Positions 1-35,273 of a stretch of DNA of 64,000 nt are shown piece by piece. The notes beneath the pieces were generated by a model that saw nothing but the letters and a program-made list of their open reading frames with translations, had not been told where the DNA came from and did not search any database. Position 1 is the stretch's first letter. Each line of letters begins with the position of its first letter. Origin of the DNA: Alloactinosynnema sp. L-07 (GTDB taxonomy: Bacteria; Actinomycetota; Actinomycetes; Mycobacteriales; Pseudonocardiaceae); the NCBI RefSeq assembly GCF_900070365.1, contig NZ_LN850107.1, positions 7,254,001-7,318,000 on the forward strand, read 5' to 3'. The translations under genes and the position numbers were made by a program.

Positions 1-363
1 TCTGCGGCGGCATCGAGATTCAGGCGTCATCACCACAATCAGTACACGAATGACTCCGTCTGAATTAGACAGTTCGTTGCGAACGGGCTGTTCGCCGGTT
101 GGTCACTTCGCATTGTCGATCACGAAATCTTCGCAACGATACTTCTCAATGTACGGCCGAAATTTCTTCGCTGAACCAGAAGCTTCGGACGGACACCGCA
201 GATGAGGGGGTGATGCGCCCGACTGGCCCGCGAACGGAGTTGCCGCTCCGGCCGCGAACCAGCCAGGTCATTCGCATCACGGTGTGGACCTTGCTCTCGC
301 CACATCGGACACGTGCCCGGACAACAGTCCAGAGCACATACTGCGTAGAAAAGGATACATGCA
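1..363. other. Region upstream of the surface locus, no gene seen
   Basis: I see no convincing coding sequence here; the short open frames lack ribosome binding sites and do not resemble proteins. The stretch is less GC-rich than the genes that follow and presumably holds the promoter of the surface locus. An AAAAGG sequence at 349-354 sits about nine bases before the GTG start at 364 and is the likely ribosome binding site. Confidence 0.4.
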
Positions 364-1347
364 GTGAGCAAGAAGCGTATGCTCGTCGCGGCTTCGGCCG
401 CTCTCGCGGCGCTGGCTCTCGCGTCTGGCTCGGCCCAGGCCGACCCGACCGGCGCCCCGACCTACCGTGAGCTCGTCGGCACCGGCTCCGACACCACCCA
501 GACCGTCATGAACGGCCTGGCCGACGCCATCACCATCAACGGCGTCAAGGTTCTTGGTTCGTACGACGCCCGTGGTTCGGTGCAGATCACCACCAAGGAC
601 GCCGCGACCAACCCGAACTGCACCGTGGCGCGCCCCGAGGGCTCGACCCCCGGTGTCAACCTGCTCAAGGCCAACATGGCCTCGGGCGACGGCTGTGTGC
701 AGTTCGCCCGTTCGTCGTCGAACAACGCGACGGCCAACCCGACCCTGCGCTACATCCCGTTCTCGGTCGACGCGCTGACCTACGCGGTCCGCGGCGACAG
801 CACGGTGCCGAAGAAGCTGACCAAGGCGCAGCTGACCTCGATCTACACCTGTGCGAGCACCACCTTCAAGCCGCTGGCCCCGCAGTTCGGCTCTGGCACG
901 CGTCAGTTCTTCGTCCGCCAGGTCATGCCCGCGGGCACCGTCGACTCGGCCACGCTGTTCGGCCCCGGCGGCACCTACCCGTGTGTCACCGACAAGGACG
1001 CCGCGAACGAGGGCATCCAGGAGCACGTCGGCACCTACCTGACCGACGTCAAGCACCTGCTGCCCTACTCGATCGCGGTCTACAACTCGCAGATCTACGG
1101 CCAGGCGCCTGCCGCGCAGGGCAAGGCCGTGCTGGGCGTGCTCGACAACATCCAGCCGAGCAACCTGAACACCTCGTCGACGATGAAGCGTGACGTCTAC
1201 AACGTGATCCCGGCCGACAAGATCGCCGAAGAGCCGTACGCGAGCGTCTTCGTCGGCTCGAACTCGCTCATCTGCGCCCGTCAGGACGTCATCACCCGCT
1301 ACGGCTTCGGTGTCGCCGCCAACTGTGGCCAGCCGCTCGTCCCGTAG
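364..1347 (+). CDS. Secreted PstS-like substrate-binding protein
   Basis: The 327-residue protein starts with a Sec signal peptide (MSKKR, an Ala/Leu-rich core, an AQA-D type cleavage site near residue 27) and is therefore exported. The mature part begins with a GTGSDTT motif and follows the pattern of the periplasmic phosphate-binding (PstS-like, PBP type 2) fold; four to five cysteines suggest disulfides. There is no lipobox cysteine, so it is not an obvious lipoprotein. It starts at a GTG preceded by AAAAGG. The locus also has a PstB-like ATPase at 7499-8308 but no PstC or PstA permease, so a role as phosphate importer is not supported by context; a surface or sensing role with the neighbouring exported proteins is inferred. 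Fold assignment is moderately sure, ligand unknown. Confidence 0.7.
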   Translation: MSKKRMLVAASAALAALALASGSAQADPTGAPTYRELVGTGSDTTQTVMNGLADAITINGVKVLGSYDARGSVQITTKDAATNPNCTVARPEGSTPGVNLLKANMASGDGCVQFARSSSNNATANPTLRYIPFSVDALTYAVRGDSTVPKKLTKAQLTSIYTCASTTFKPLAPQFGSGTRQFFVRQVMPAGTVDSATLFGPGGTYPCVTDKDAANEGIQEHVGTYLTDVKHLLPYSIAVYNSQIYGQAPAAQGKAVLGVLDNIQPSNLNTSSTMKRDVYNVIPADKIAEEPYASVFVGSNSLICARQDVITRYGFGVAANCGQPLVP

Positions 1348-1431
1348 TTCTTCCCCGCTCGCTTGAGCAGCTCGTCCAGTAGCTCTTCCACACCTTCACG
1401 AAAGGTCTGCACAACCGTGCGAGGAAACACC

Positions 1432-2982
1432 ATGGCCCGCCGGGCTGTCGGCTTCGCGGTCGCGTTCGCCGCCGCTGCCGCCGCCACCATCGGCGCCGCG
1501 GGCATCGCTGCCGCCGCCCCCGCCGTCAAGATCGGCAACCTGACCGCCAGCAAGGCGTCGGGCTCCGACATCGAAGCCCCCGGCTACACCACCAGCGGCG
1601 GCTGCCCGACCGACTCCGACGGCTACGAGGTCCGTATCTACGGTCCCGGCGCCTTCACCCCCGGGCTCGTCGCCACCACCGTGACCGACGTCAACTTCTC
1701 CACCACCAGCGCGTTCTCCGTGGTGCAGACGCTGTCGTTCAAGGACGTCGCGGTCGACAACAGCACCACCATCGTGCCGGGTCTCTACACCGTCGCGGTC
1801 AACTGCCTCGACCAGCTCGCGGCCGCGGAGAAGGGGTCGTTCACCGTCGACCTCAACTTCACCACCGCCACCGCGTGGACCGTCGTCGCGAACAAGGTCA
1901 ACACCACCACCGCCCTGTCGGCCGCCCCGGCCGCCCCGGTGACCGCGGGCTCCGCGGTGACCCTGACCGCGACGGTCTCCCCGTCGACCACCGGCCAGGT
2001 CCAGTTCCGTGACGGCGCCAACGCCCTCGGCGCCCCGGTCGCCGTGAACAACGGTGTCGCCACCCTCACCACCTCGGCTCTGGCCGTGGGCGCGCGTTCG
2101 CTGACCGCCGAGTTCCTGGGCAGCGCCACGCACAACGGGTCGACCTCCGCCGCGCTGGCCTACCAGGTCAACCCGGCTCCGGCGGGCGACACCACCACCG
2201 CCCTCGCGGTGACCCCGAGCGGCACCGCCGCGCAGTACAGCACCGTCACCCTCGCGGCGACCGTGGCCCCGGCCACCGCCGCAGGAACCGTGCAGTTCTT
2301 CGATGGCGCCAACGCCCTGGGCAACCCGGTCACCGTCGCCAACGGCTCCGCCTCGGTCAACAACGCCAACTTCGCCGTTGGCGCGCACAGCTTCACCGTG
2401 CGCTTCATCCCGGCCAACCCGGCCCTCTTCAACCCGTCGGTGTCCGCCGCCGTCGCGCTGGAGATCACCGCGTTCGCCGGTGTCACCACCTACGAGGACA
2501 TCACCACCACCGTTCTCGCCGGTGAGCTGACCATCTCGGTCGCGAACCAGAACGTCGTCCTGCCCTCGCCGGTCATGGCCGCCGACGGCTCGCTGCTGAC
2601 CACCGCTGGTTCGCTCAACCCGATCAAGGTAACCGACACCCGCGCGGGTAACCCGGGCTGGAACGTCTCGGGCCAGGTGACCGACTTCATCAACGGCGCC
2701 AACTCGATCAACGGTGCCAACCTGGGCTGGACCCCGAAGATCGTCGACAAGTCCCCGGTTCAGGTCATCACCGCCGGTGCCCTCGTCGACCCGGCCAACG
2801 CCATCGTTCCGGGCGCCACCGCCCCGAACGGCCTCGGCCTGGCCACCGCCCGTGTTCTGGCCTCCGCCGCCGCCCTCGGCGGCAACGGCACCGCGAACCT
2901 CACCGCGGACCTGGCCCTCAAGGTTCCCACCTCCACCGTGGCGGGCACCTACACGGCGCGGCTGACCCTCACCGCTATCTGA
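1432..2982 (+). CDS. Secreted Ig-like repeat protein
   Basis: This 516-residue protein has a long Ala-rich signal peptide ending near residue 30. Residues about 32-150 form a domain with two cysteines (in TTSGGC and AVNC) and the signature FKDVAVDNSTT. The same domain recurs in the products at 4128 and 4915. It is followed by two bacterial Ig-like repeats of about 85-90 residues (each TTALxxxP...VQFxDGANALG), then a further beta-rich region of about 180 residues ending in LTLTAI. The ATG at 1432 was chosen because GAGG lies just upstream and the signal peptide begins there. No anchor motif is visible, so it is secreted or non-covalently retained. Ig-like repeats commonly form rigid stalks in adhesins; the ligand is unknown. 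Confidence 0.75.
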   Translation: MARRAVGFAVAFAAAAAATIGAAGIAAAAPAVKIGNLTASKASGSDIEAPGYTTSGGCPTDSDGYEVRIYGPGAFTPGLVATTVTDVNFSTTSAFSVVQTLSFKDVAVDNSTTIVPGLYTVAVNCLDQLAAAEKGSFTVDLNFTTATAWTVVANKVNTTTALSAAPAAPVTAGSAVTLTATVSPSTTGQVQFRDGANALGAPVAVNNGVATLTTSALAVGARSLTAEFLGSATHNGSTSAALAYQVNPAPAGDTTTALAVTPSGTAAQYSTVTLAATVAPATAAGTVQFFDGANALGNPVTVANGSASVNNANFAVGAHSFTVRFIPANPALFNPSVSAAVALEITAFAGVTTYEDITTTVLAGELTISVANQNVVLPSPVMAADGSLLTTAGSLNPIKVTDTRAGNPGWNVSGQVTDFINGANSINGANLGWTPKIVDKSPVQVITAGALVDPANAIVPGATAPNGLGLATARVLASAAALGGNGTANLTADLALKVPTSTVAGTYTARLTLTAI

Positions 2983-3018
2983 TCTGTTCCTCGGATAGCC
3001 AGCTAGCACCACGCCAGT

Positions 3019-3055
3019 GGGGGCGGATCGGGACCAGGCATCCCGATCCGCCCCC
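3019..3055 (+). terminator. Perfect 15-bp stem hairpin
   Basis: A GC-rich inverted repeat (GGGGGCGGATCGGGA and its complement, 7-base loop) lies 36 bases after the stop of the Ig-like protein. There is no clear T-run. It is likely a terminator or an attenuating or stabilising hairpin separating that gene from the next one. Confidence 0.6.
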
Positions 3056-3106
3056 ACGCCCTGGATTTCAAGCTCCACAATGACCATGCTCTACAAAGGA
3101 CACGAC

Positions 3107-4141
3107 ATGACGCGGATCTGGCGCCGCACGATCCTCACCGGCCTGCTCGCCGCCGTCGCACTGGGAGCCTTCCCGGCCGTGGCCACGGCGCAGGACACGC
3201 CCGCGCAGGACAAGGGGCCCGCCACCTTCGGCGTGCGGCCCGCCACCGCGCAAGCGCCGGACAACCGCCCCAACTTCAGCTTCAGCGCGACGCCGGGCGC
3301 GGTGATCAAGGACCACCTCGCCGTCGCGAACATCTCCACCGGTCCGCTGTCGCTCAAGGTGTACGCCAGCGACGCTTTCAACACCCCTGACGGCGGTTTC
3401 GACCTGCTCGCCGCCGGGCACAAGCCGGTGGACATCGGCGCTTGGGCCAAGGTCGACGCCGAGACCGTCGAGGTTCCCGGCCGCACCACCAAGATCGTGC
3501 CGTTCACCATCACCATCCCGGCGGACGCGACGCCCGGCGACCACGTCGGCGGCATCGTCGCCGCGCTGGTCACCGAGGCCACCGGCAGCGACGGCCAGCG
3601 CGTCGCGGTCGAGCAGCGCGTCGGCTCCCGGTTCTATCTGCGGATCTCCGGCGACCTGAAGCCGCGGCTGTCGATCGAGGGCCTCACCGCGCAGTACAGC
3701 GGCGGGTGGTTCGGCAGCGGCGAGACGAAGATCAGCTACACCGTCCGCAACTCGGGCAACGTCCGCCTCGGCGGCAAGCAGAAGGTCACCGTCGAGACCC
3801 CGTGGGGCTCCGGGACCAGCGCCGAGAACCTGCCGGACCTGCCGGAACTGCTGCCGAACAACACTTTCGCCGTCACCACCACGGTCAAGGGCATTCTGCC
3901 CGCGGGCTGGCTCGACGGCCTGGTGCACATCGACCCCGTTGCCCCGCCCGGGCCGCAGCCCCAGGCCGAGGCGATCGACGCGAGCGTCACGGTCGTCGCG
4001 GTGCCGTGGCTGCTGGTCATCCTCCTCGCCGTGGTCCTGCTGCTGGTCCTGTTCCTGCGGTGGCGCAAGCGCAGGCGCAAGAACGCGCCCGGCCCGGCCG
4101 ACCCGGAGCCCGTCGTGGAGGTGCAGAGTGCGGTTGCGTAA
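3107..4141 (+). CDS. Exported DUF916-like membrane protein
   Basis: The 344-residue product has a signal peptide (MTRIWRRT, hydrophobic core, ATAQD cleavage site), an extracytoplasmic part of about 270 residues and one C-terminal membrane span (about 305-328) followed by the basic tail RWRKRRRKN. The extracytoplasmic part resembles the DUF916/WxL-associated peptidoglycan-binding architecture: an FGVRPA start, a cadherin-like beta sandwich, then a second beta domain. The ATG at 3107 has AAAGGA six bases upstream. Its 3' end overlaps the start of the next gene by 14 bases, so the two are co-translated. A scaffold that displays or holds the neighbouring surface proteins is a reasonable inference. 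Confidence 0.65.
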   Translation: MTRIWRRTILTGLLAAVALGAFPAVATAQDTPAQDKGPATFGVRPATAQAPDNRPNFSFSATPGAVIKDHLAVANISTGPLSLKVYASDAFNTPDGGFDLLAAGHKPVDIGAWAKVDAETVEVPGRTTKIVPFTITIPADATPGDHVGGIVAALVTEATGSDGQRVAVEQRVGSRFYLRISGDLKPRLSIEGLTAQYSGGWFGSGETKISYTVRNSGNVRLGGKQKVTVETPWGSGTSAENLPDLPELLPNNTFAVTTTVKGILPAGWLDGLVHIDPVAPPGPQPQAEAIDASVTVVAVPWLLVILLAVVLLLVLFLRWRKRRRKNAPGPADPEPVVEVQSAVA

Positions 4142-4871
4142 GCACTTCGCGGCTGCCCTGCTGGCGCTGACGGCTCTCGTCGGCCTGGCGGGGCATGCCG
4201 CTGCCCAGGCCCCCGGCGTGCTGGTCGTCACCCCCGGCGAGAGCGTCGACGCGGTTCCGGTGCGGCTCACCACCGAGAAGGGGTGCCCGCGCCCGGCGAC
4301 CGGCTACATGGCCACGATGAAGGGCCACGGCCTCGACAACGTCAACGTCGTCGCCACCTCGGATGTCGGCATCTCTTTCTCCGAGAGCTTCGAGGTGCAC
4401 CTGGCGTACACGTTCAAGGACTTCGCCGCGGACAACAACACCACGCTGCAAGGCAAGTACGACATCACCTTGACCTGTGTGGACATGTTCACCCAGCAGG
4501 CGTACGGCTCCTTCGTCGCCACGGTCGACTTCCCGCAGCAGGCGCGCTACGTCGCGCAGGGCAAGTCGAAGGGCCCGCAGCAGCACACCAAGCCCGCCGT
4601 GCCCGGCATGGAGGAGCAGTCAGTGCCCCAGCAGGGCGGCCAGCCGGGGCTGCCTGGCCAGCCGACCCAGCCAGGCCAGGCCGCGCCCGAAGCGCAGCCG
4701 TCCCCACAGGACCCAGATGCCGCGGCGCAGCCCGCGCCCGCGAGCGGCGACGGCACACAGCCGTTCCTGTACCTCGCGGGCGGCGTGCTCGCGTTGATCG
4801 CGGTGGCGTTCGCCGTGTCGTCGTTCCGCAAGCGCGCCAAGGCGCCCAGTTCCGAGTCCGCATCAGAGTGA
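4128..4871 (+). CDS. Exported single-span protein with the shared two-Cys domain
   Basis: A GTG start at 4128 is preceded by GGAGG at 4117-4121. The 247-residue protein has a signal peptide ending at AAAQA, then a domain (about 30-145) with the locus signature: a TEKGC cysteine, TFKDFAADNNTT and LTC. A Pro/Gln-rich linker (about 150-205) follows. A C-terminal membrane span (FLYLAGGVLALIAVAFAVSS) with a basic tail comes last, without an LPxTG-type motif, so the domain is held outside the cell by a transmembrane anchor. It overlaps the 3107 gene. Function is unknown; the domain is a divergent copy of those at 1432 and 4915. Confidence 0.65.
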   Translation: MRLRKHFAAALLALTALVGLAGHAAAQAPGVLVVTPGESVDAVPVRLTTEKGCPRPATGYMATMKGHGLDNVNVVATSDVGISFSESFEVHLAYTFKDFAADNNTTLQGKYDITLTCVDMFTQQAYGSFVATVDFPQQARYVAQGKSKGPQQHTKPAVPGMEEQSVPQQGGQPGLPGQPTQPGQAAPEAQPSPQDPDAAAQPAPASGDGTQPFLYLAGGVLALIAVAFAVSSFRKRAKAPSSESASE

Positions 4872-4914
4872 CGCCGAACCCGGCCGCTGCTCACCACATT
4901 GGAGGAAATCTTTC

Positions 4915-6438
4915 ATGCGTAAGCGCCATCTGATCGCGGCAGGCGCGGCGGTCCTCACCACGGCCGTGGCCGGTGTGATCATCGCCGCGGGCAGCTCCGC
5001 GGCGGCCCCGCCGGTCGGCGACCTGGGCACCCTGTCGGTCAGCAAGGACAAGGGCCTCGACATCGAGGCGCCGTCCTACACCACGTCGGCCCCGTGCACG
5101 GCCGACTCCGACGGCTACGACCTGCGCGTGTTCGGCCCGGGCAAGTGGGAGACCGGCCTGGTCGGCACCACCGTCACCGACGTGGGCTTCTCGTCGACCG
5201 ACCCGTTCCCGGTCACCCAGACGCTGACCTTCAAGGACATCGCGGTCGACAACAGCACCACGATCACCGCGGGCGTCTACACGGTCATGGTCAGCTGCAA
5301 GGACCAGCTCGCCGACGTCACCAAGGGCACCTTCACCCGGAACTTCTACTTCACCGACGCCACGCACTGGCAGCTGAAGGACCCGGCGGAGCCGACCACC
5401 ACCACCACGGCGACCACCACCACTACAACGACCACCACGACGGTGGAGCCGACCACCACGACGACGACCGTGGAGCCGACGACGACCACGACCGTCGAGC
5501 CGACCACCACCACCGTGGAGCCGACCACGACCACGGTCGAGCCCACCACGACCACCACCACGGTCGACCCCACGACCACGACGGTCGAGCCGACCACCAC
5601 GACGACGACCGTGGAGCCGACGACGACCACTACGACGGTCGAGCCGACGACGACCACCACGACCACCACGACCACGGTGGAGCCGACGACCACGACCACC
5701 ACCACGACGGTCGAGCCGACCACCACGACGACGACCTCGAGCACGACGACCACCACGACGCCCGGTGAGATCCCGCTGCTGGGCAAGCTGACCTCGTCGA
5801 AGCAGGCCGGTCTGGACACCGACGCGCCGATCTACACCACCTCGGCGGGCTGCCCCGACACCGCGGACAACTACCGCGCCGACCTGTTCGGCCCGGGTGC
5901 GTTCGAGAACGGTCGTGAGCTCGTCAGCCTCAGCGACGCGGGCATCTCCTTCACCGCGCCGTTCACCGCGCAGCAGAGCAACACCTTCCTCGACATCGCC
6001 AAGGACGCGAACCTGACGGCGATGCCGGTCGGCGACTACACGATCGTCCTGTCCTGCCACATCGGTGTGGAGGACGAGAGCGTCGGCATCTTCACCCTGG
6101 ACATCAAGTTCACCGACGCGAAGAACTGGAAGGTCATCACCGGCGGGCAGACCAGCACCACCACCGCGCCGACCTCGACCACGTCGGGCACCGCCACCAC
6201 CAGCACCACGGCGGGCACCACGACCTCGGGCACCACCACCACCGACGCCACCACCACCACGACGACGACCCCGGCGGCGTCGGGTAACGGCGACTCCGAC
6301 GACGACAGCGGCCTGGCCAGCACCGGCGCGTCGATCGGGCTCAGCGTCCTGGTCGGGTCCGTGCTGATCGGCGCGGGTGCGTTCGCGGTCGTCGCGGCGC
6401 GCAGGCGCCGGGCCGTGGGCACCTCGTCCGACAGCTGA
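4915..6438 (+). CDS. Cell-wall anchored Thr-rich surface protein with LAxTG signal
   Basis: The 507-residue protein has a signal peptide (residues 1-32), a first two-Cys domain (about 35-155, FKDIAVDNSTT), a long Thr-rich stalk built of VEPTTTT-type units (about 160-283), a second copy of the domain (about 285-405), another Thr-rich stretch, and a C-terminal sorting signal: LASTG, a hydrophobic span and ARRRR. LAxTG is the motif known for class E sortases of actinobacteria. The Thr-rich stalks are probably O-mannosylated, as is usual for such sequences in actinomycetes (inference). The next gene encodes a sortase-like protein that lacks catalytic residues, so the enzyme that anchors this protein must be encoded elsewhere. 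Confidence 0.8.
   Translation: MRKRHLIAAGAAVLTTAVAGVIIAAGSSAAAPPVGDLGTLSVSKDKGLDIEAPSYTTSAPCTADSDGYDLRVFGPGKWETGLVGTTVTDVGFSSTDPFPVTQTLTFKDIAVDNSTTITAGVYTVMVSCKDQLADVTKGTFTRNFYFTDATHWQLKDPAEPTTTTTATTTTTTTTTTVEPTTTTTTVEPTTTTTVEPTTTTVEPTTTTVEPTTTTTTVDPTTTTVEPTTTTTTVEPTTTTTTVEPTTTTTTTTTTVEPTTTTTTTTVEPTTTTTTSSTTTTTTPGEIPLLGKLTSSKQAGLDTDAPIYTTSAGCPDTADNYRADLFGPGAFENGRELVSLSDAGISFTAPFTAQQSNTFLDIAKDANLTAMPVGDYTIVLSCHIGVEDESVGIFTLDIKFTDAKNWKVITGGQTSTTTAPTSTTSGTATTSTTAGTTTSGTTTTDATTTTTTTPAASGNGDSDDDSGLASTGASIGLSVLVGSVLIGAGAFAVVAARRRRAVGTSSDS
5392..5760 (+). repeat. In-frame Thr-codon low-complexity repeat
   Basis: About 370 bases of ACC/ACG codons punctuated by GTGGAGCCG (Val-Glu-Pro) units encode the stalk of the surface protein. 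The units vary from four to ten threonines. Such a repeat is prone to length variation between strains. It is coding, not a CRISPR or satellite. Confidence 0.85.
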
Positions 6439-6518
6439 TCGACATGGTTGCCCTGAAGCCGCCCGGGTTCCGCTCATCGCGGGCCCGGCGGCCAGGGGCA
6501 CGTTCCAACCCGTTCGTG

Positions 6519-6546
6519 TGCGCCGGGGCCAGACAGCCCCGGCGCA
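6519..6546 (+). terminator. GC-rich hairpin after the surface-protein gene
   Basis: TGCGCCGGGGC and its exact complement with a 6-base loop form an 11-bp stem between the LAxTG protein gene and the sortase-like gene. There is no T-run; it may terminate or attenuate the upstream transcript. Confidence 0.5.
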
Positions 6547-6573
6547 TACGGGTGTGACCAGGAAGGACACAAG

Positions 6574-7482
6574 GTGACGGTGACCGACGAGACCGTGCGC
6601 CCGGCCGAACCCGCGCCCGCGCCCGTCGATGACAGACGCGTGTCGTGGCTGGTGTTCGCCGGGCAGATGTTCGCCATCCTGGGCGCGGTGCTGCTGTGCT
6701 TCGTCGCCCAGCTGGCGCTGATCGGCGCGGCCAAACACGCCCGCGACCAAGAGCGCGCGCTGGTCGACTTCCGGGTCGAACTCGCCAACGCGACGGCCCC
6801 GGTCTCGGCGCTGACCGACGAGGGCAGGCTGCTCGACGCGGGCACGTCGGTCGCCATCATCGAGATCCCCAGGCTGCGTCTGCGGGAAGTGGTCGCCGAA
6901 GGCACCTCGGCGCGCACGCTCAAGTCCGGGCCAGGGCACCTGCGCAACACCCCGCTGCCCGGCCAGGCCGGAATCAGCGTCATCCTCGGCCGCCGCGCCG
7001 CGTACGGCGGCCCGTTCAGCCTGCTCGACCGGCTGCAACAGGGCGACCAGATCATCGTGACCACCGGCCAGGGCGAGCACCGCTACATGGTGCAGGGCGT
7101 GCGACATGCTGGCGACAAGGAGCGGCCCGCGCCCAAGGCCAACGAGGGCAGGCTGCTGCTGGCCACCGCCGACGGCCCGATGTTCCTGCCCACCGACGTC
7201 ATGCGCGTCGACGCGCGGCTGACCTCCGAGGTGCAGACCACCTCCGGCGCGGTACCCGCGTTCGCGGTGCCCGACAGCGAGCGGCTCATGGTCGGCGACA
7301 ACAGCGCGTTGGTCCCCGTTGTGCTGTGGAGCCTGCTGCTCGCGGTGGCCGCCGTGCTGATCGTGTGGGTGCGTAAGCGGGTCGGCCGCTGGCACGCCTG
7401 GGTGATCGGCCTGCCCGTACTCGGCGTGCTGGGCGTGACCCTGGCCGACCAGGCCGCCGCGATGCTGCCGAACTTGTTGTGA
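6574..7482 (+). CDS. Sortase-fold protein lacking catalytic His and Cys
   Basis: The 302-residue product has one N-terminal membrane span (about 25-48), an extracellular sortase-like domain (about 70-220) and two C-terminal spans (about 246-264 and 272-296). The sortase landmarks [13 protein letters not shown] and [16 protein letters not shown] are clear. At the catalytic His position the expected GHR is GRR (Arg140), and at the catalytic Cys position the expected TLTTC is LLATA (Ala199); the only cysteine is in the first membrane span. The catalytic Arg also seems replaced. I infer a pseudo-enzyme that may bind the LAxTG substrate or act as assembly scaffold. The start GTG at 6574 follows AAGGA. 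The gene lies directly after an LAxTG protein. Confidence 0.75.
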
Positions 7483-7498
7483 CGCAAGGAGAATGACG

Positions 7499-8308
7499 AT
7501 GACTGTGACCCAACAGCTGCCCGCCCCCGGCGACCTCGCCGCCCTGGACGCGCGCTCGATCTCGGCTTGGTTCGGCGAGCGCAAAGTGCTCGACCGGGTG
7601 TCGCTGATGATGCCCGCCGGGTCGGTGACCGCGCTGATCGGCCCGTCGGGCTGCGGCAAGTCGACCTTCCTGCGCACGCTCAACCGGATGCACGAGCTGA
7701 TCCCCGGCGCGACTTTGGCGGGGGAGGTGCTGCTGTCGGGGGCCGACATCTACGACCCGAAGCGAAAGCTCACCGACGCGCGCAGGCAGATCGGGATGGT
7801 GTTCCAGAAGCCGAACCCGTTCCCGGCCATGTCGATCTACGACAACGTGGTCGCCGGGCTGAAGCTGACCGGGACCAAGGTGGCACGGTCCGAGCGCGAC
7901 GACCTGGTGGAGTCCTGCCTGGCCAAGGCAGGTCTGTGGAACGAGGTACGCGAGCGCCTGCGCCAGCCCGGTGGCGCGCTTTCCGGCGGACAGCAGCAGC
8001 GCCTGTGCATCGCACGGTCCCTGGCGGTCCGCCCCAAGGTGCTGCTCATGGACGAGCCATGCTCGGCGCTGGACCCAACCTCGACGCGTCGCATTGAGCA
8101 GACCATCGCGGAACTGTCACACGAGGTGACAATCGTGATCGTCACGCACAACATGCAGCAAGCGGCCCGCGTGTCCCAGCAGTGCGCGTTCTTCCTGGCC
8201 GAACAGGGCACGCCCGGCGTGATCGTCGAGGCAGGCCCAACAGAGATGATCTTCGGCTCGCCCCAGGACGAACGCACCTCCGACTACGTCCACGGCCGCT
8301 TCGGCTAA
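7499..8308 (+). CDS. PstB-type ABC transporter ATPase
   Basis: The 269-residue protein is a complete ABC ATPase of the phosphate (PstB) type: Walker [10 protein letters not shown] (about 48-56), Q-loop in [10 protein letters not shown], signature LSGGQQQR, Walker [14 protein letters not shown] and H-loop THNMQQ. I prefer the ATG at 7499 over 7493 because AAGGAG (7486-7491) is then seven bases away. All catalytic residues are present. No permease gene is nearby. The operon also contains a PstS-like protein, so either the permeases are elsewhere or the ATPase powers an unusual membrane partner such as the sortase-like protein. It is the last gene before the palindromic repeat. Confidence 0.85.
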
Positions 8309-8375
8309 GCGCGTCTTTGGCTTGTGGGGACCGAAGGTCCCTGCACTTTCCCCTGCACCCTCGTCCTGGCAATCC

Positions 8376-8463
8376 CTTATCCGGAAACAGGGATGTCAAG
8401 GGTCAGCTCGCTGATCGCGCAGCGACGCCGCAGGCGCCCTTGACATCCCTGTTTCCGGATAAG
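8376..8463. repeat. Hairpin element P1 with perfect 27-bp arms
   Basis: The left arm begins CTTATCCGGAAACAGGGATG at 8376 and the right arm ends at 8463 as its exact complement. The 34-base centre (8403-8436) itself folds (TCAGC/GCTGA). The same element recurs inverted in the copy at 34856-35273. Confidence 0.8.
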
Positions 8464-8578
8464 ACGCTGATTGACGAGGGAGCGGCTCGCCCTCCGAAGC
8501 CCGGACGAGTGCACTCGTTGGCGTACAACGAGTGCACTCGTCGTGGGGCAGGGCGGGGTCGCTCCCCTAGCCCGAGCG

Positions 8579-8668
8579 TTTAACATTCGATCGACGGCGT
8601 CAAGGGCGCCTGCGGCGTCGCTGCGCGATCGGCAAGCCGACCCTTGACACCGCCGATCGAATGTTAAA
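8579..8668. repeat. Hairpin element P2 with 28-bp arms
   Basis: The arms (TTTAACATTCGATCG at the left end) match with two mismatches over 28 bases. The inner 34 bases are the reverse complement of the P1 centre with a few changes, so P1 and P2 are members of one family with different outer arms. Confidence 0.75.
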
Positions 8669-8911
8669 GATGGCCAGGACGGGGTGCTGGGGGCAAAGCG
8701 GTCGGTTGGGTGGCTGATTTGCGTTGGTGCGTTGCGGTTGTAGAGATTAGTCCACTGTGTACTGATCGTAGATGATCCTGTCCAGGGAGGCTGTTGATTT
8801 GATCACGCCTGGGTAGCCTGAGACCAATGGCCTCAGCTGCGGTCGTGACTCGGCGGGAGTGCGGGTAACCTGGTCTTTCCGGGACTGGCTTGCGGCTGCT
8901 GGGGAGTGTGC

Positions 8912-9235
8912 GTGGATCTTCGGTTGGAGGATCCGCCTGCGCCTGGCGTTGTGCTGGTCGCGATCGGTGGGGAGGTCGACTTCGTGGCGGCGGGTGTTCT
9001 GGAGCGGTTTCTGCTTGGTGCTGTCGCTGAGCAGCGGCATCGCAAGCCTGGGCTGATCATCGACCTGTCCGATGCCGAGTTCTTCGGGTGTGCCGGGGTC
9101 AACGCGCTTATCGCGGCGCAGCGGCGGTTGGAGGCGAGTGGGGGGTGGCTGCGGTTGGTGGATCCGTCGCCCGCTGTGTCTCGGGTGTTGGATGCGGCGG
9201 GCATGAACACGTTGTTGCGGGTGGCGGAGTCGTGA
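8912..9235 (+). CDS. STAS-domain protein (anti-sigma factor antagonist-like)
   Basis: The 107-residue protein is a single STAS domain (VVLVAIGGEVD, LIIDLSDAEFFGCAGVNAL). In anti-anti-sigma factors the phospho-acceptor lies in a DSS/DST motif; here the position reads GCAG, so no serine or threonine is available and control by a switch kinase is unlikely. The GTG at 8912 is preferred to 8906 because GGGGAG (8901-8906) is then properly spaced. It is followed 35 bases later by an ankyrin protein gene. The partner is unknown. Confidence 0.7.
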   Translation: MDLRLEDPPAPGVVLVAIGGEVDFVAAGVLERFLLGAVAEQRHRKPGLIIDLSDAEFFGCAGVNALIAAQRRLEASGGWLRLVDPSPAVSRVLDAAGMNTLLRVAES

Positions 9236-9269
9236 CGCGCTCTCCGCACGAGGTTGGGGGGATGAACCT

Positions 9270-10478
9270 GTGACATTCGCGCGCTCGCCGCATCAGGTCA
9301 CCGCGTTCGACAGTGCCGTGGACGAGTTTCTCGCGCACGCCTGCCTGGTCTACGGCGGTGATGGGCCGCATCGGCTCGATCGGGCGCGGGCGATGCTGGC
9401 CGCCGATCCGAGTCTGGCCGCCGCCAACCTGCACACCATCGCCGCACTAGGGGACGTCGACGCGGCGCGTGGGTGGCTGGCCGATCATCCCGAGGCCGCG
9501 CGGGAGCAGGGGGGTCCGTTCGGCTGGGAGCCCTTGCTCTACCTCTCCTACTCGCGGTTGCCCGGTGGCGATCCGGTCGGGGTGGCTCGGCTGCTGCTCG
9601 ACGCGGGCGCTGATCCGAACGCGGGCTATCTGTGGGAGGGCCTCTGCCCGCCCTTCACGGCTCTCACCGGCGCGTTCGGCGAAGGCGAAGACACCGTCAA
9701 CGAGCCGCGGCACCAGGCTGAGCAGGCGCTGGCGCGGCTGCTGCTCGCCGCCGGGGCCGATCCGAACGACGGCCAAGCCCTCTACAACCGGATGTTCGGC
9801 GCCGACGACGGCCACCTGCGGCTGCTGTTCGAGTTCGGTCTCGGCCGCGGCGACGGCGGCCCGTGGAAGGCCAGGCTGGGCGCCAAGCAGGCGACCCCTG
9901 AACAAATGATCCACGACGTGCTTCTCTGGGCGGCGGGCCACGGCCAGCGTGATCGGGTCGCCCTGCTGCTCGACCACCGCGTCGCCCCCGAGTCCGAGTT
10001 CCGCGGACACCCGCTGCACCACGGTCGTTCGCCTTGGGAACTGGCGGTTCGGGCGGGGGAGTCCGAGATCGCCGACCTGCTGGTCGCCGCGGGTGCCCGG
10101 CCGGTGGACCTCGACGACGTGGACCAGTTCTTCGCCGCGGCGATGCGCGGCGACAGCGTGGCGGTGGCCGCCACCGCGCCCGAGGTCGTCCGGGCGGCGC
10201 GGGAGCGCGGGCCGACCGCGGTGGTGGACGCCGCTGAACTAGGCAAGGCGGTCTCGGTCCGGCTGCTCGTCGACGCAGGGTTCGACGTCAACGCAGCCGT
10301 CCGCGAGACCGCCTTGCACCAGGCCGCGTTCGCCGGTGACCTGCCGCTGGTGCGGCTGCTGCTCGACCTTGGCGCCGACCCGACCCGACAGGACACGGAA
10401 TTCGGGTCGACACCGCAGGGGTGGGCCGAGCACGCGGGCCACCACGACGTGGCGGAACACCTCCGGCAGCTTCCCTGA
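9270..10478 (+). CDS. Ankyrin repeat protein
   Basis: The 402-residue cytoplasmic protein contains several ankyrin-type units, recognisable by LLLDAGADPN (about residue 110), LLLAAGADPN (about 155), LLVAAGARP, LLVDAGFDVN and LLLDLGADP with TALHQAAFAG. These repeats mediate protein-protein contacts; no enzymatic domain is visible. It starts at GTG 9270 with GGGGG upstream. It may be co-transcribed with the STAS gene. Specific role unknown. Confidence 0.75.
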   Translation: MTFARSPHQVTAFDSAVDEFLAHACLVYGGDGPHRLDRARAMLAADPSLAAANLHTIAALGDVDAARGWLADHPEAAREQGGPFGWEPLLYLSYSRLPGGDPVGVARLLLDAGADPNAGYLWEGLCPPFTALTGAFGEGEDTVNEPRHQAEQALARLLLAAGADPNDGQALYNRMFGADDGHLRLLFEFGLGRGDGGPWKARLGAKQATPEQMIHDVLLWAAGHGQRDRVALLLDHRVAPESEFRGHPLHHGRSPWELAVRAGESEIADLLVAAGARPVDLDDVDQFFAAAMRGDSVAVAATAPEVVRAARERGPTAVVDAAELGKAVSVRLLVDAGFDVNAAVRETALHQAAFAGDLPLVRLLLDLGADPTRQDTEFGSTPQGWAEHAGHHDVAEHLRQLP

Positions 10479-10506: not shown

Positions 10507-11238
10507 CTAGTAGCCGAAGGCTTGGGTCCAGTAGATGCGGTAGCTGCCGCCCTTGGCCATGCCCACGCCCAGTTCCTTGAAGTCGCAGTTGAGGATGTTG
10601 GCGCGGTGGCCTGGGCTCTTCATCCACGACTCCATGACCGACTTGGGTGTGGCCTGACCGGCGGCGATGTTCTCGCCGCCGCCCTTGGTGTATCCCTCTG
10701 CCTTGATGCGGTCGAAGGGGGAGCGGCCGTCCTGCGAGTTGTGGTCGAAGTAGTTGTTCGCGGCCATGTCCGCGCTGTGCTTGCGGGCGGCCAGCGCCAG
10801 CGTGTCGTGCCAGCGCAGCGGTCCGCAGCCCGCCTTCGATCGTTCGGTGTTGACGATCGCCAAGACCTCGGACTCGGCCGGGTCCGCACCCGGCGGGACC
10901 GGCGCGGGCTTGGGCTTGGTGGTCGTCGGCTTGGGCTTGGTGGTGGTCGTGCTGGGTGGGGGCGGTGGGGGCGCCGTCGTGGTCGTGGTTGTCGGCGCGA
11001 TCGGCGCCGCGCCCGCGTCGGCCACAGTCGCCGACGCCGATCCGGTCGGGTCCGGTGCCGGGGTGGTGGCCGACTGGGCGTGCGACCTGGCGCCGCCCGA
11101 GTTGGAGTCGACGATGGCGACCTGGGCGGTGTCACGCCAGGTCGGCAGGGCTACCACGACCGCGATGGCGGCGACCGCGACGCCCACGGCGATCAGCAGG
11201 CCGCGTCGGCGGCGGTGCGACTTCGGCGTGTAGTGCAC
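10507..11238 (-). CDS. Membrane-anchored CAP (SCP/PR1) domain protein
   Basis: The 243-residue protein has a basic N-terminus, one membrane span (about 13-32), a Thr/Pro/Lys-rich linker (about 55-115) and a C-terminal CAP domain (about 120-243) with the recognisable EVLAIVNTERSKAGC start, HSADMAANNYFDH and PGHRANILNC motifs. The CAP domain is outside the cell; in bacteria such domains are secreted or wall-associated with mostly unknown ligands. It is divergent from a sigma factor that also carries a CAP domain, with 117 bases between the starts, which suggests a functional pair. Confidence 0.85.
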   Translation of the reverse strand: MHYTPKSHRRRRGLLIAVGVAVAAIAVVVALPTWRDTAQVAIVDSNSGGARSHAQSATTPAPDPTGSASATVADAGAAPIAPTTTTTTAPPPPPPSTTTTKPKPTTTKPKPAPVPPGADPAESEVLAIVNTERSKAGCGPLRWHDTLALAARKHSADMAANNYFDHNSQDGRSPFDRIKAEGYTKGGGENIAAGQATPKSVMESWMKSPGHRANILNCDFKELGVGMAKGGSYRIYWTQAFGY

Positions 11239-11355
11239 GGTTGATCCTTCTGGGGGAATTCGGGGAGTGGCTACGCCCGTTGGACGTCGGGGTTGCGCCA
11301 GGGATTACGGTCTGATGTCGAAAGCCGTCGAAAGTTTTCTGCGGAGGCGACACGG

Positions 11356-12726
11356 ATGCGGGTAGGCGAAGCGACCGACGCCGAACTCGTCGATGCCACC
11401 CTGGCAGGCGACGAGGACGCGTTCTCGCAGCTCTACCACCGGTATCGGACCCCGGTGACCAGGTTCGTCGCGCGCACGGTCGGCGACCCGCACCTGGCCG
11501 AGGACCTGGTCCAAGAAGCGTTCGTGCGGGCCCTGCGCCTGCTGGGGGACCTGCGTGATCCCCTCCGGTTCCGGCCGTGGCTGTTCAGCATCGCCCACCG
11601 CGCCGCGCTCGATCACGTCCGCCGGGGCGGTCCGGTGCTGCTGTGGGACCTGCCGGAGGTCGCCGGGGACGACTCGCCGCACGAGAACGCCGCGGCCCGC
11701 GAGGCCGTCGGGCTGGTTTGGGACGCCGCGGCGAGCCTGGAACCGCGGCAGCTGGCCATCCTGGAGCTGACGGTCCGCGACGAGGTGACCAACGCCGAAC
11801 TGGCCCAGGCACTGGATGTGCGCGCCTCCCACGCCGCCGTGCTCGCCCACCGGGCCCGCTCCGCGCTCGGCCACGCCGTGCGGCTGCTGTTGCTCGCCCG
11901 CAACCCTCGCCGCTGCTCCCGGTTGGCCGGGCTGGTGCCCGACCGGCCGCGCACCCTGTCGCGCGCCCAGCGCGCCAGTGTCGACCGGCACCTGCGGCGC
12001 TGCCCCGAGTGCCGCGACCTCGCGGGCAGGCTGACCACCCCGCTGGCCGCCTTCGGCGTGCTGCTGGTCGCCGCCGGGCGCACGTCGTCGGTCCCGGTCG
12101 ACCAGGCCGCCTGGGCGCTGGCCGACCCGTCGCGCCACCTGGTCCGCAAGAGTCTCGTCACGCTGGGACTGACCGTCGCGCTGACCGTCGGCTGGTGGTT
12201 CGTGCCGAGCCCGCAGGAACCGCCGCCGGTCGTCGCGCCGCCGCCGACCACCACCACGACGCGCGAACCAGTCCCGCCGCCCGTGGCGCCCGTCGCGAAT
12301 GTTCCGCCGCCCACGACCACAACCGTCGCCACCACCACGACCACTCCGCGTCCACCGTCCGAAGTGGACAAGCTGATCACCGCCCTGAACCAGCGCCGCT
12401 CGGCGGAGGGCTGCGGTCCGGTGCGGTCGATCCCGCAGCTGACCACCGCGGCCCGCGCGCACAGCACCGACATGATGAACGCGAGCCACATCGGCCTGAC
12501 CAGCCCCGACGGCACCTCCCTGGCCGACAGGGTCAAGGCGACCGGCTACCGCGGCATGCGCGGCGCATACGTCGCGGCCTACCGCGAGACCGGCGCCGAA
12601 CTGGCCAAGGAACTGGCGGCCGGGGACACGCCCGCGCTGTCCTGTGAGGTCGACACCATCGGCGTCGGCCGGGCTGTGGGCGGCGAGTGCGGCTACTACT
12701 GGGCGATCGTCTACGGCAAGGACTAA
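11356..12726 (+). CDS. Sigma factor fused to zinc anti-sigma motif, membrane span and extracellular CAP domain
   Basis: The 456-residue protein begins with ECF sigma region 2 (about 12-80: AFSQLYHRYRTPVTRFV, DLVQEAFVRAL) and region 4 (about 115-170). A zinc anti-sigma motif HxxxCxxC follows (His212, Cys216, Cys219). One membrane span is near 267-283, then a Thr/Pro-rich linker (about 290-330) and a degenerate CAP domain (about 336-456: LITALNQRRSAEGCG, ARAHSTDMM). Topology would put the sigma part inside and the CAP part outside, giving a one-protein signalling device. The ATG at 11356 has GGAGG about eight bases upstream. ECF factors with fused transmembrane extensions are known; a CAP sensor is unusual to me. 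The divergent CAP protein gene is a likely target or ligand partner. Confidence 0.8.
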   Translation: MRVGEATDAELVDATLAGDEDAFSQLYHRYRTPVTRFVARTVGDPHLAEDLVQEAFVRALRLLGDLRDPLRFRPWLFSIAHRAALDHVRRGGPVLLWDLPEVAGDDSPHENAAAREAVGLVWDAAASLEPRQLAILELTVRDEVTNAELAQALDVRASHAAVLAHRARSALGHAVRLLLLARNPRRCSRLAGLVPDRPRTLSRAQRASVDRHLRRCPECRDLAGRLTTPLAAFGVLLVAAGRTSSVPVDQAAWALADPSRHLVRKSLVTLGLTVALTVGWWFVPSPQEPPPVVAPPPTTTTTREPVPPPVAPVANVPPPTTTTVATTTTTPRPPSEVDKLITALNQRRSAEGCGPVRSIPQLTTAARAHSTDMMNASHIGLTSPDGTSLADRVKATGYRGMRGAYVAAYRETGAELAKELAAGDTPALSCEVDTIGVGRAVGGECGYYWAIVYGKD

Positions 12727-34855: not shown

Positions 34856-35273
34856 AACGCACCAACGCAAAGCAGCCACCCAACCGACCGCTTTGCCCCC
34901 AGCACCCCGTCCTGGCCATCTTTAACATTCGATCGGCGGTGTCAAGGGTCGGCTTGCCGATCGCGCAGCGACGCCGCAGGCGCCCTTGACGCCGTCGATC
35001 GAATGTTAAACGCTCGGGCTAGGGGAGCGACCCCGCGGTTGTGCGACGAACGAGTGCACTCGTTGGTGCACAACGATTGAGCGCACTCGTTCGGGCTTCG
35101 GAGGGCGAGTCGCTCCCTCGTCAATCAGCGTCTTATCCGGAAACAGGGATGTCAAGGGCGCCTGCGGCGTCGCTGCGCGATCAGCGAGCTGACCCTTGAC
35201 ATCCCTGTTTCCGGATAAGGGATTGCCAGGACGAGGGTGCTGGGGGAAGTGCAGGGACCTTCGGTCCCCACAA
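34856..35273 (-). repeat. 418-bp palindrome-rich repeat, copy B
   Basis: This is the inverted counterpart of 8322-8733. It contains the same P2 hairpin (34919-35009 region) and P1 hairpin (35133-35219 region), but its pair of GAGTGCACTC palindromes has partly degenerated. It separates two convergent regulator genes and can terminate both. Confidence 0.8.

Follow-up and report, generated by a model that had tools for sequence, protein, structure and literature searches.

A Cys-less sortase family encoded within a second Pst-type transporter locus of Actinomycetota

What is a sortase-like protein that lacks its catalytic residues doing among genes for a phosphate-type transporter and for surface proteins? 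The question is raised by seven consecutive plus-strand genes (g1 to g7, positions 364-8308) in a 64,000-nucleotide stretch of the 7.4-Mb genome of Alloactinosynnema sp. L-07 (G000:C1:7254001-7318000), which we refer to as the window. Having compared this locus with its relatives, we give a probability of roughly 0.6 to the reading that many Actinomycetota carry a complete Pst-type importer locus in which the sortase-like protein, a pseudo-sortase encoded here by g6, acts as a scaffold that positions two membrane-tethered proteins of PstS type, u4 and u3, over the permease.

The upstream half of the locus

The window edge cuts the locus. Within 6.5 kb upstream (10 kb were read, L103, to which the following coordinates refer), we find four further plus-strand genes. 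The first, u1 (3509-4531), encodes a PstC permease (TIGR02138, 224.2 bits; cut-off 196.45), and u2 (4531-5784) a PstA permease, for which TIGR00974 is the best model at 189.2 bits, just under its cut-off of 193.45. The product of u3 (5781-7424) is a PstS-type protein of 547 residues (TIGR00975, 203.5 bits; cut-off 205) tethered by a C-terminal transmembrane helix; that of u4 (7474-9936), also called PBP2 here, has 820 residues, with a PstS-type C-terminal part followed by a C-terminal transmembrane helix. u1 shares a few bases with u2, and u2 with u3; u4 ends 64 bases before the window and about 430 bases before g1, the two halves of the locus being joined by an intergenic stretch (window positions 1-363). 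A first-pass annotation of the window had reported that no permease is present, because the window edge cuts the locus, and had described the PstS-like and PstB-type proteins as orphans. With PstC, PstA and two more PstS-type proteins lying directly upstream, they belong instead to a second Pst-type system that is complete. Nor does the ATPase call for the unusual membrane partner that had been proposed for it, since g7 sits with an ordinary PstC/PstA pair; an orphan PstB with such a partner is rejected. Together, the upstream genes and those of the window make up a complete Pst-type ATP-binding cassette (ABC) system, of which the window genes form the downstream half and which is separate from the canonical PstSCAB.

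About 1.7 Mb from the window, the genome has its canonical PstS-PstC-PstA-PstB operon, with a lipoprotein PstS (L102, G000:C1:5563000-5572000). When the canonical PstC was used as query in 28 genomes, 26 of them locus-bearing, a PstC was found at the pseudo-sortase locus in all 26 (in G135 it is reached by crossing the start of the contig, which is treated as circular), and a further PstC-type match of over 200 bits was found elsewhere in 24 of them. The remaining two are G558, which has the locus PstC only, and G376, with only weak further matches. In a tree of PstC sequences, from which the canonical copy of G135 was excluded, 82 locus copies are split from 24 canonical and two canonical-type copies (L156 and L174), with a support of 0.986 on the canonical side and a weak 0.574 on the locus side.

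The C-terminal transmembrane helix is present in 108 of 111 u3 relatives and in 107 of 110 u4 relatives. Read by eye, neither g1 nor u3 has a lipobox, and the canonical PstS of this genome is a lipoprotein. The PstS oxyanion loops are mostly kept in the u3 relatives. At their acidic position, for which we take Asp56 of Escherichia coli PstS to be the reference residue, Glu occurs in 71 of the 111 sequences and Asp in 31. The loops are a different matter in u4: a profile alignment with PstS (probability 98.2%) shows that the residues of the GSGS and DGSGT loops are not kept. A model of u4 made from an Actinocrispum relative (L140; predicted local distance difference test, pLDDT, 81.9; predicted template modelling score, pTM, 0.81) matches PstS 8ods in a Foldseek comparison with a template modelling score of 0.75 by target length and 0.33 by query length.

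Loss of catalytic residues in the sortase-like family

The product of g6 (6574-7482, plus strand) has an N-terminal transmembrane helix, a sortase barrel (PF04203, 62.6 bits; cut-off 26.6) and two C-terminal transmembrane helices, and ends in LPNLL. Alignment confirms that Arg140 (codon 6991-6993) stands at the position of the catalytic His and Ala199 (7168-7170) at that of the catalytic Cys, as had been read from the window sequence; the third catalytic residue of sortases, Arg, is also lost, its position being occupied by Val209 (7198-7200). At the column of the LAXTG-selecting Tyr, in the beta3/beta4 loop, g6 has Leu123; judging from the Phe of CpSrtD found there, this column presumably corresponds to Tyr229 of the class E sortase SrtE1. 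The score of g6 against the NCBIfam class E model is below the cut-off (NF033747, 76 bits; cut-off 160). In the predicted structure (pLDDT 92.9, pTM 0.86), an N-terminal helix (residues 25-71) is followed by the barrel (92-216) and by the C-terminal helices (243-270 and 272-296). Every top Foldseek match is to a sortase, with classes C, D and E among those represented (leading rows E 4e-11 to 1e-9, among them 3.8e-11 to the class D structure 4d70 and 9.9e-10 to the class E structure 5go5), and the model thus indicates that g6 has the sortase barrel fold. The nearest named homologues come from Actinokineospora, and Amycolatopsis mediterranei S699 has a homologue of 60% identity (P0024). Close homologues carry the database labels "sortase," "class E sortase," "class D sortase," and "LPXTG-site transpeptidase"; genome surveys may count as enzymes sortase-labelled proteins that probably cannot work. 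Away from the locus, the genome of the window encodes two sortases of class E type in which both His and Cys are present, so that the annotation's "no active sortase" is right for the locus but not for the genome.

To place these losses, we compared 160 sortase-like proteins drawn from 120 genomes of the family, 298 of the order and 396 of the phylum, and from a named genome collection. The first set comprises 40 places from the family and order searches, picked by score and coverage. Of the 400 relatives that a pattern scan built on dead sequences gave, the named set takes the best 80; this seeding biases counts at columns 121-126. The phylum set is 20 picked places, mostly near full length (G729:C23, G687:C199 and G381:C84, also of nearly full length, were left out), and the 20 controls are sortase places from the next-best matches of the family-genome search. 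We call a sequence dead if its Cys is lost (129 of the 160), so the Cys-lessness of that group is true by definition. For column counts, identical sequences were merged, which reduces the 129 to 123; some contigs occur in both the first and the named set.

Cys is lost in 40/40 sequences of the first set, 80/80 of the named set, 9/20 of the phylum set and 0/20 controls; the 120/120 of the first and named sets is a statement free of selection on the active site. Among the 123 distinct Cys-less sequences, the His column holds Arg in 116, Lys in three and His in four, and the Cys column holds Ala (95), Ser (19), Thr (5), Gly (3) or Val (1), while the catalytic Arg is kept in a single one. All 31 active sortases have the His; Cys and Arg are present in 11 out of 11 from the phylum set, and a TLTTC motif in 20 out of 20 controls, in 18 of which the Cys column is unaligned and the Cys was read from that motif. 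The selecting Tyr is absent from all 129 dead sequences, 80 of which were selected by a pattern that fixes Arg at this column, and the active sortases have Tyr (29/31) or Phe (2/31) there. The tree groups 127 of the 129 dead sequences in a single clade that has no active member (support 0.808).

The loss of His and Cys seen when g6 is aligned with class E sortases is thus common to a whole clade. In the dead family, Arg140 itself, Arg177 and Trp276 are among several noncatalytic residues that hardly vary, as is the LPN motif at the C-terminus; this suggests that a function has been retained. Decay of one sortase gene is rejected: the loss is clade-wide and the surrounding residues are conserved.

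Seven sortases deserve a separate remark. L212, L213, L215-L218 and L223 have His, Cys and Arg, and their match to the pseudo-sortase profile reaches the C-terminal transmembrane part. Several of their tails read LLPA, and no Pst genes are nearby. They are a possible sister group of the dead family.

Gene neighbourhood and the window block

Dead and active sortases differ sharply in their neighbours. Where at least 8.5 kb are available on both sides, PstC, PstA or a tethered PstS lies beside 77 of 79 dead sortases versus none of 26 active ones. One of the two exceptions, L057, has PBP2 and PstB in its span and PstC just outside. Two Fisher values computed alongside take no account of how the sequences are related and serve as description only. 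Presence was scored by thresholds of our own choosing, and for several first-set loci whose span lacked PstC, the gene turned up just beyond the span; no Pst-type gene exceeds these thresholds at any of the 20 control loci or of the 11 active phylum-set loci. In the 53 full-span loci of the named set, we find tethered PstS in 53, PBP2 in 53, PstB in 51, PstA in 50 and PstC in 42. WxLIP is present in 26 of these 53, and in 21/40, 32/80 and 4/9 dead loci of the first, named and phylum sets when spans cut by contig ends are included. A further surface-protein family occurs in 31 of 73 full-span loci, the next families in 12 (on the opposite strand) and eight.

The pseudo-sortase is also tied to u4 across genomes. 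We count a pseudo-sortase match as strong at E ≤ 1e-38 with the C-terminal helices reached (27 of 52 listed order genomes) and a u4 match as strong at E ≤ 1e-100 (28 of 30 genomes; G150 and G228 are not counted), both searches being taken to cover the same 298 order genomes, since comparable rows agree. At these cut-offs, which were chosen after the lists had been seen, 27 genomes have both u4 and the pseudo-sortase, one has u4 only and none has the pseudo-sortase only. Four genomes (G078, G119, G120 and G184) have two of each.

Across the 129 dead loci, the pairs that are adjacent within 150 bp or overlapping are u3-u4 (99 loci), u2-u3 (91), u1-u2 (77), g6-g7 (61) and u4-g6 (53), a gene order that supports one unit. 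The locus is composed of PstC, PstA, u3, u4, g6 and g7, usually with g1, and in part of the genomes with wall proteins of WxL, WxLIP or LAxTG type. The exact order of the seven window genes is found in only six of the 40 first-set loci, all in the family of the window; L074, from another family, lacks only g4. Conservation of the seven genes together therefore holds in this exact form for few loci, but the core of Pst genes and pseudo-sortase is far more widely conserved, and the exact block is younger than that core. The broader idea of a dedicated envelope gene set that is conserved together is supported by the linkage and the co-occurrence.

Reading the open reading frames directly bears out the seven consecutive plus-strand genes, and the domain searches and alignments agree with the description of their products as a PstS-like secreted protein, a DUF916-like membrane protein, an intact PstB-type ATPase and three exported proteins with one shared domain. 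The secreted protein is that of g1 (364-1347; PBP_like_2, PF12849, 28.8 bits; cut-off 27). It has a signal peptide and no C-terminal transmembrane helix (such a helix is found in two of 107 g1 relatives), keeps the GSD and GSGT loops (as GSDTT and GSGTR), and matches the tethered PstS family with a profile probability of 95.3%. g3 (3107-4141) encodes the WxLIP (DUF916) protein, with a score over the cut-off (PF06030, 34.6 bits; cut-off 27.3) and a C-terminal transmembrane helix by hydropathy. The ATPase gene, g7 (7493-8308), scores just under the TIGR00972 cut-off (341.6 bits versus 343.2); its nucleotide-binding motifs, Walker A (7640-7666), signature (7979-8002) and Walker B (8042-8059), are whole, and the PstB motif residues are kept in 98-100% of 114 g7 relatives.

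The shared domain occurs, by alignment of its four copies, once in g2 (1528-1863), once in g4 (4218-4532) and twice in g5 (5020-5355 and 5776-6114). Besides this domain, g2 (1432-2982) encodes two Ig-like repeats (Big_3_5, 7e-28) and a WxL-like C-terminal domain (about 2614-2967, with W motifs at 2656 and 2725), neither of which the annotation had listed; the latter match is weak (PF13731, 23.2 bits at E 7.9e-5; cut-off 25). In g4 (4128-4871), the domain is followed by a Pro/Gln-rich linker and a C-terminal transmembrane helix, with no Pfam match and no sorting motif seen. The two copies in g5 (4915-6438) are accompanied by Thr-rich linkers, and the protein ends in a LASTG sorting signal (6313-6327), a transmembrane helix and RRRR; its score against the NCBIfam model LAXTG_small_WW, 26.3 bits, is under the cut-off of 65. 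All of these genes lie on the plus strand.

The region 3′ of g7 holds members of a dispersed palindromic repeat family (window 8376-8463 and 35132-35219), the first of them within a compound element (8376-8668). The inverted-repeat arms past g7 measure 27 nucleotides (100% identity), 28 (93%), 51 (nested, 94%) and 17 (100%). A 71-base piece of the repeat has 43 matches in its own genome, the query and partial matches counted, and an exact second copy in the window. Farther on, a plus-strand gene at 11293-12726 combines an extracytoplasmic function (ECF)-type sigma factor (Sigma70_r2) with a CAP/SCP domain in one protein. A zinc-finger-like stretch scores under its cut-off, and a membrane helix and a Thr/Pro linker are visible by eye; the protein looks membrane-tethered, with an extracellular domain. 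The sigma gene is adjoined by a separate CAP protein gene (10507-11238, minus strand), and an ankyrin-repeat protein is encoded beside both (9270-10478, plus strand).

Possible roles and known systems

The pseudo-sortase is most likely a noncatalytic membrane subunit or scaffold of a Pst-type importer with tethered receptors; its place as a subunit is well supported, and the data suggest a dead sortase turned into a structural part of a pump. In such an importer, u3 and perhaps g1 would capture an oxyanion ligand at the surface, probably phosphate or a phosphate-bearing group, and hand it to PstCA, with PstB driving the cycle and the receptors held by membrane helices instead of lipid. The pseudo-sortase would neither cut nor join peptides, its barrel and extra membrane helices serving as a fixed scaffold by which u4 and u3 are placed above the permease; together with u4, which like it is without its ancestral motifs, it may form a fixed exoplasmic frame over PstCA. 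In the lineage of the window, the WxLIP, WxL-like and LAxTG proteins may extend the receptor array into the wall, and attachment to the wall would possibly be through one of the two active class E-type sortases of the genome. The physical complex, the scaffold role, the loss of activity, the substrate and the direction of transport are inferred. A more sweeping version, a phylum-wide transporter class in which a dead sortase and a loop-less PstS fold, both retired from their former roles, form a fixed scaffold and a wall-anchored receptor array lets the importer collect phosphate-bearing ligands, we hold tentatively and at somewhat less than even odds.

The sortase barrel is kept, so the dead sortase might instead retain its peptide cleft, hold sorting-signal proteins such as g5 noncovalently, and in this way tie a wall layer to the transporter. 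The LASTG of g5 would fit, as would the sorting-signal proteins detected near 9/40, 14/80 and 1/9 dead loci of the first, named and phylum sets but near none of the 20 control loci. However, the scan, which was strict and ad hoc (the g5 homologue of L057, for one, escaped it), detected a sorting signal beside just 24 of the 129 dead sortases and none beside the other 105. The Tyr by which class E enzymes select LAXTG is absent throughout the dead family (with the selection of 80 sequences noted above), and the closest genetic partner is u4, whose C-terminus in the window genome shows no sorting motif by eye. Holding LAxTG proteins, which had been proposed for the pseudo-sortase, is accordingly disfavored as its main job, and we regard docking of this kind as unlikely. 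We place at about the same low level the idea that the Pst-type ATPase imports no solute and drives cycles in which surface proteins are assembled, sorted or sensed. That tethered receptors, one of them with lost binding loops, share a locus with a pseudo-enzyme and surface proteins would agree with it; against it stand the scores of PstC and PstA, which are those of ordinary Pst permeases (that of PstA falling slightly short of the cut-off), the retention of most ligand-loop residues in u3, and the presence of WxLIP in only about half of the full-span named loci.

Another reading is that the locus encodes no more than a second phosphate importer whose neighbors are decayed or there by chance. 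It could account for the sequence similarity of PstC, PstA, PstB and PstS, and for those dead sortases that are without u4 or, as at L071, without Pst genes. It fits poorly with the Pst linkage of 77/79 dead versus 0/26 active sortases, with the 27/1/0 co-occurrence with u4, and with the near-invariant noncatalytic residues of the pseudo-sortase, and we consider it very improbable. The first-pass annotation had allowed for a chance neighborhood around a decayed sortase, to be recognized by relatives with an intact active site or by unlinked genes; the relatives offer neither picture, and the active-sortase controls together with the u4 co-occurrence lead us to reject it.

Several observations weigh against the importer with a pseudo-sortase scaffold. 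Four Dactylosporangium sequences (L128, L130, L141 and L151) have His at the His column with Ala at the Cys column, and two deep dead sequences (L211 and L214) group beside the 31 active sortases in the tree and are also without u4. At L071, the true exception to the linkage, the surrounding 8.5-9 kb or so are free of Pst-type genes. The link to u4 is limited to the close family, with 25 more genomes carrying weaker sortase matches outside our post hoc cut-offs, and the genomes of L070 (G085), L071 (G008) and L093 (G353) give no u4 match; close to L070 and L093, a Pst set lies on the opposite strand but PBP2 is absent, so weaker dead sortases without PBP2 do exist. The locus is patchy, with a match reaching residue 291 or beyond in 16 of 120 family genomes. 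The acidic position of u3 is mostly Glu, and the ligand may thus not be free phosphate. Finally, a scan of L103 alone for a PHO-box-like pattern gave three weak matches, at three mismatches, versus 1.16 expected, and no clear PHO box as a sign of control by PhoP.

If the phylum-wide version is true, this would be, by the literature searched and to our knowledge, the first case in which a noncatalytic sortase has a role as a transporter subunit. To the Pst-type ABC systems of Actinomycetota, the locus adds a second and distinct one; it is also a clear example of an enzyme fold that has come into new use next to a transporter, and the tight genetic partner u4 makes the question testable. In the part of a review of actinobacterial phosphate transport considered here (PMC7866108), only PstSCAB and Pit are described as universally conserved, and a term search of it gave no mention of a second, PstS-like or orphan Pst system. 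The literature on inactive or Cys-less sortases, on sortases with Pst and on actinobacterial WxL proteins, represented mostly by titles and the beginnings of abstracts, does not describe this locus.

Three known systems resemble parts of it. In the class E sortase SrtE1 of Streptomyces coelicolor, as given in the excerpted text of its report (PMC5148588), His251, Cys320 and Arg329 are catalytic and a Tyr selects LAXTG. g6 shares its fold, its N-terminal transmembrane helix and the PGH...PGQ.G motif, but is without the catalytic His, Cys and Arg and the selecting Tyr, and unlike class E sortases the pseudo-sortase has two extra C-terminal transmembrane helices ending in LPNL. The Csc/WxL clusters of Bacilli, in the sections of two reports drawn on here (PMC1534035, PMC9772566), likewise combine DUF916/WxLIP, a large protein with a WxL-like C-terminus (in g2 a weak match, under its cut-off) and a protein with a sorting signal; no small WxL protein was found among the eleven locus proteins scanned (seven of the block and four upstream). 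In contrast to those clusters, the present genes have an actinobacterial host and sit inside a Pst-type locus with a pseudo-sortase. With the PstSCAB importer, the locus has in common the PstC/PstA permeases, an intact PstB and a receptor of PstS fold with mostly kept oxyanion loops. It differs from that importer in that the receptors are on C-terminal transmembrane helices, not on lipid, in that a second protein of the receptor fold is without the loops, and in that a pseudo-sortase and surface proteins are added, the whole lying apart from the genome's own canonical PstSCAB.

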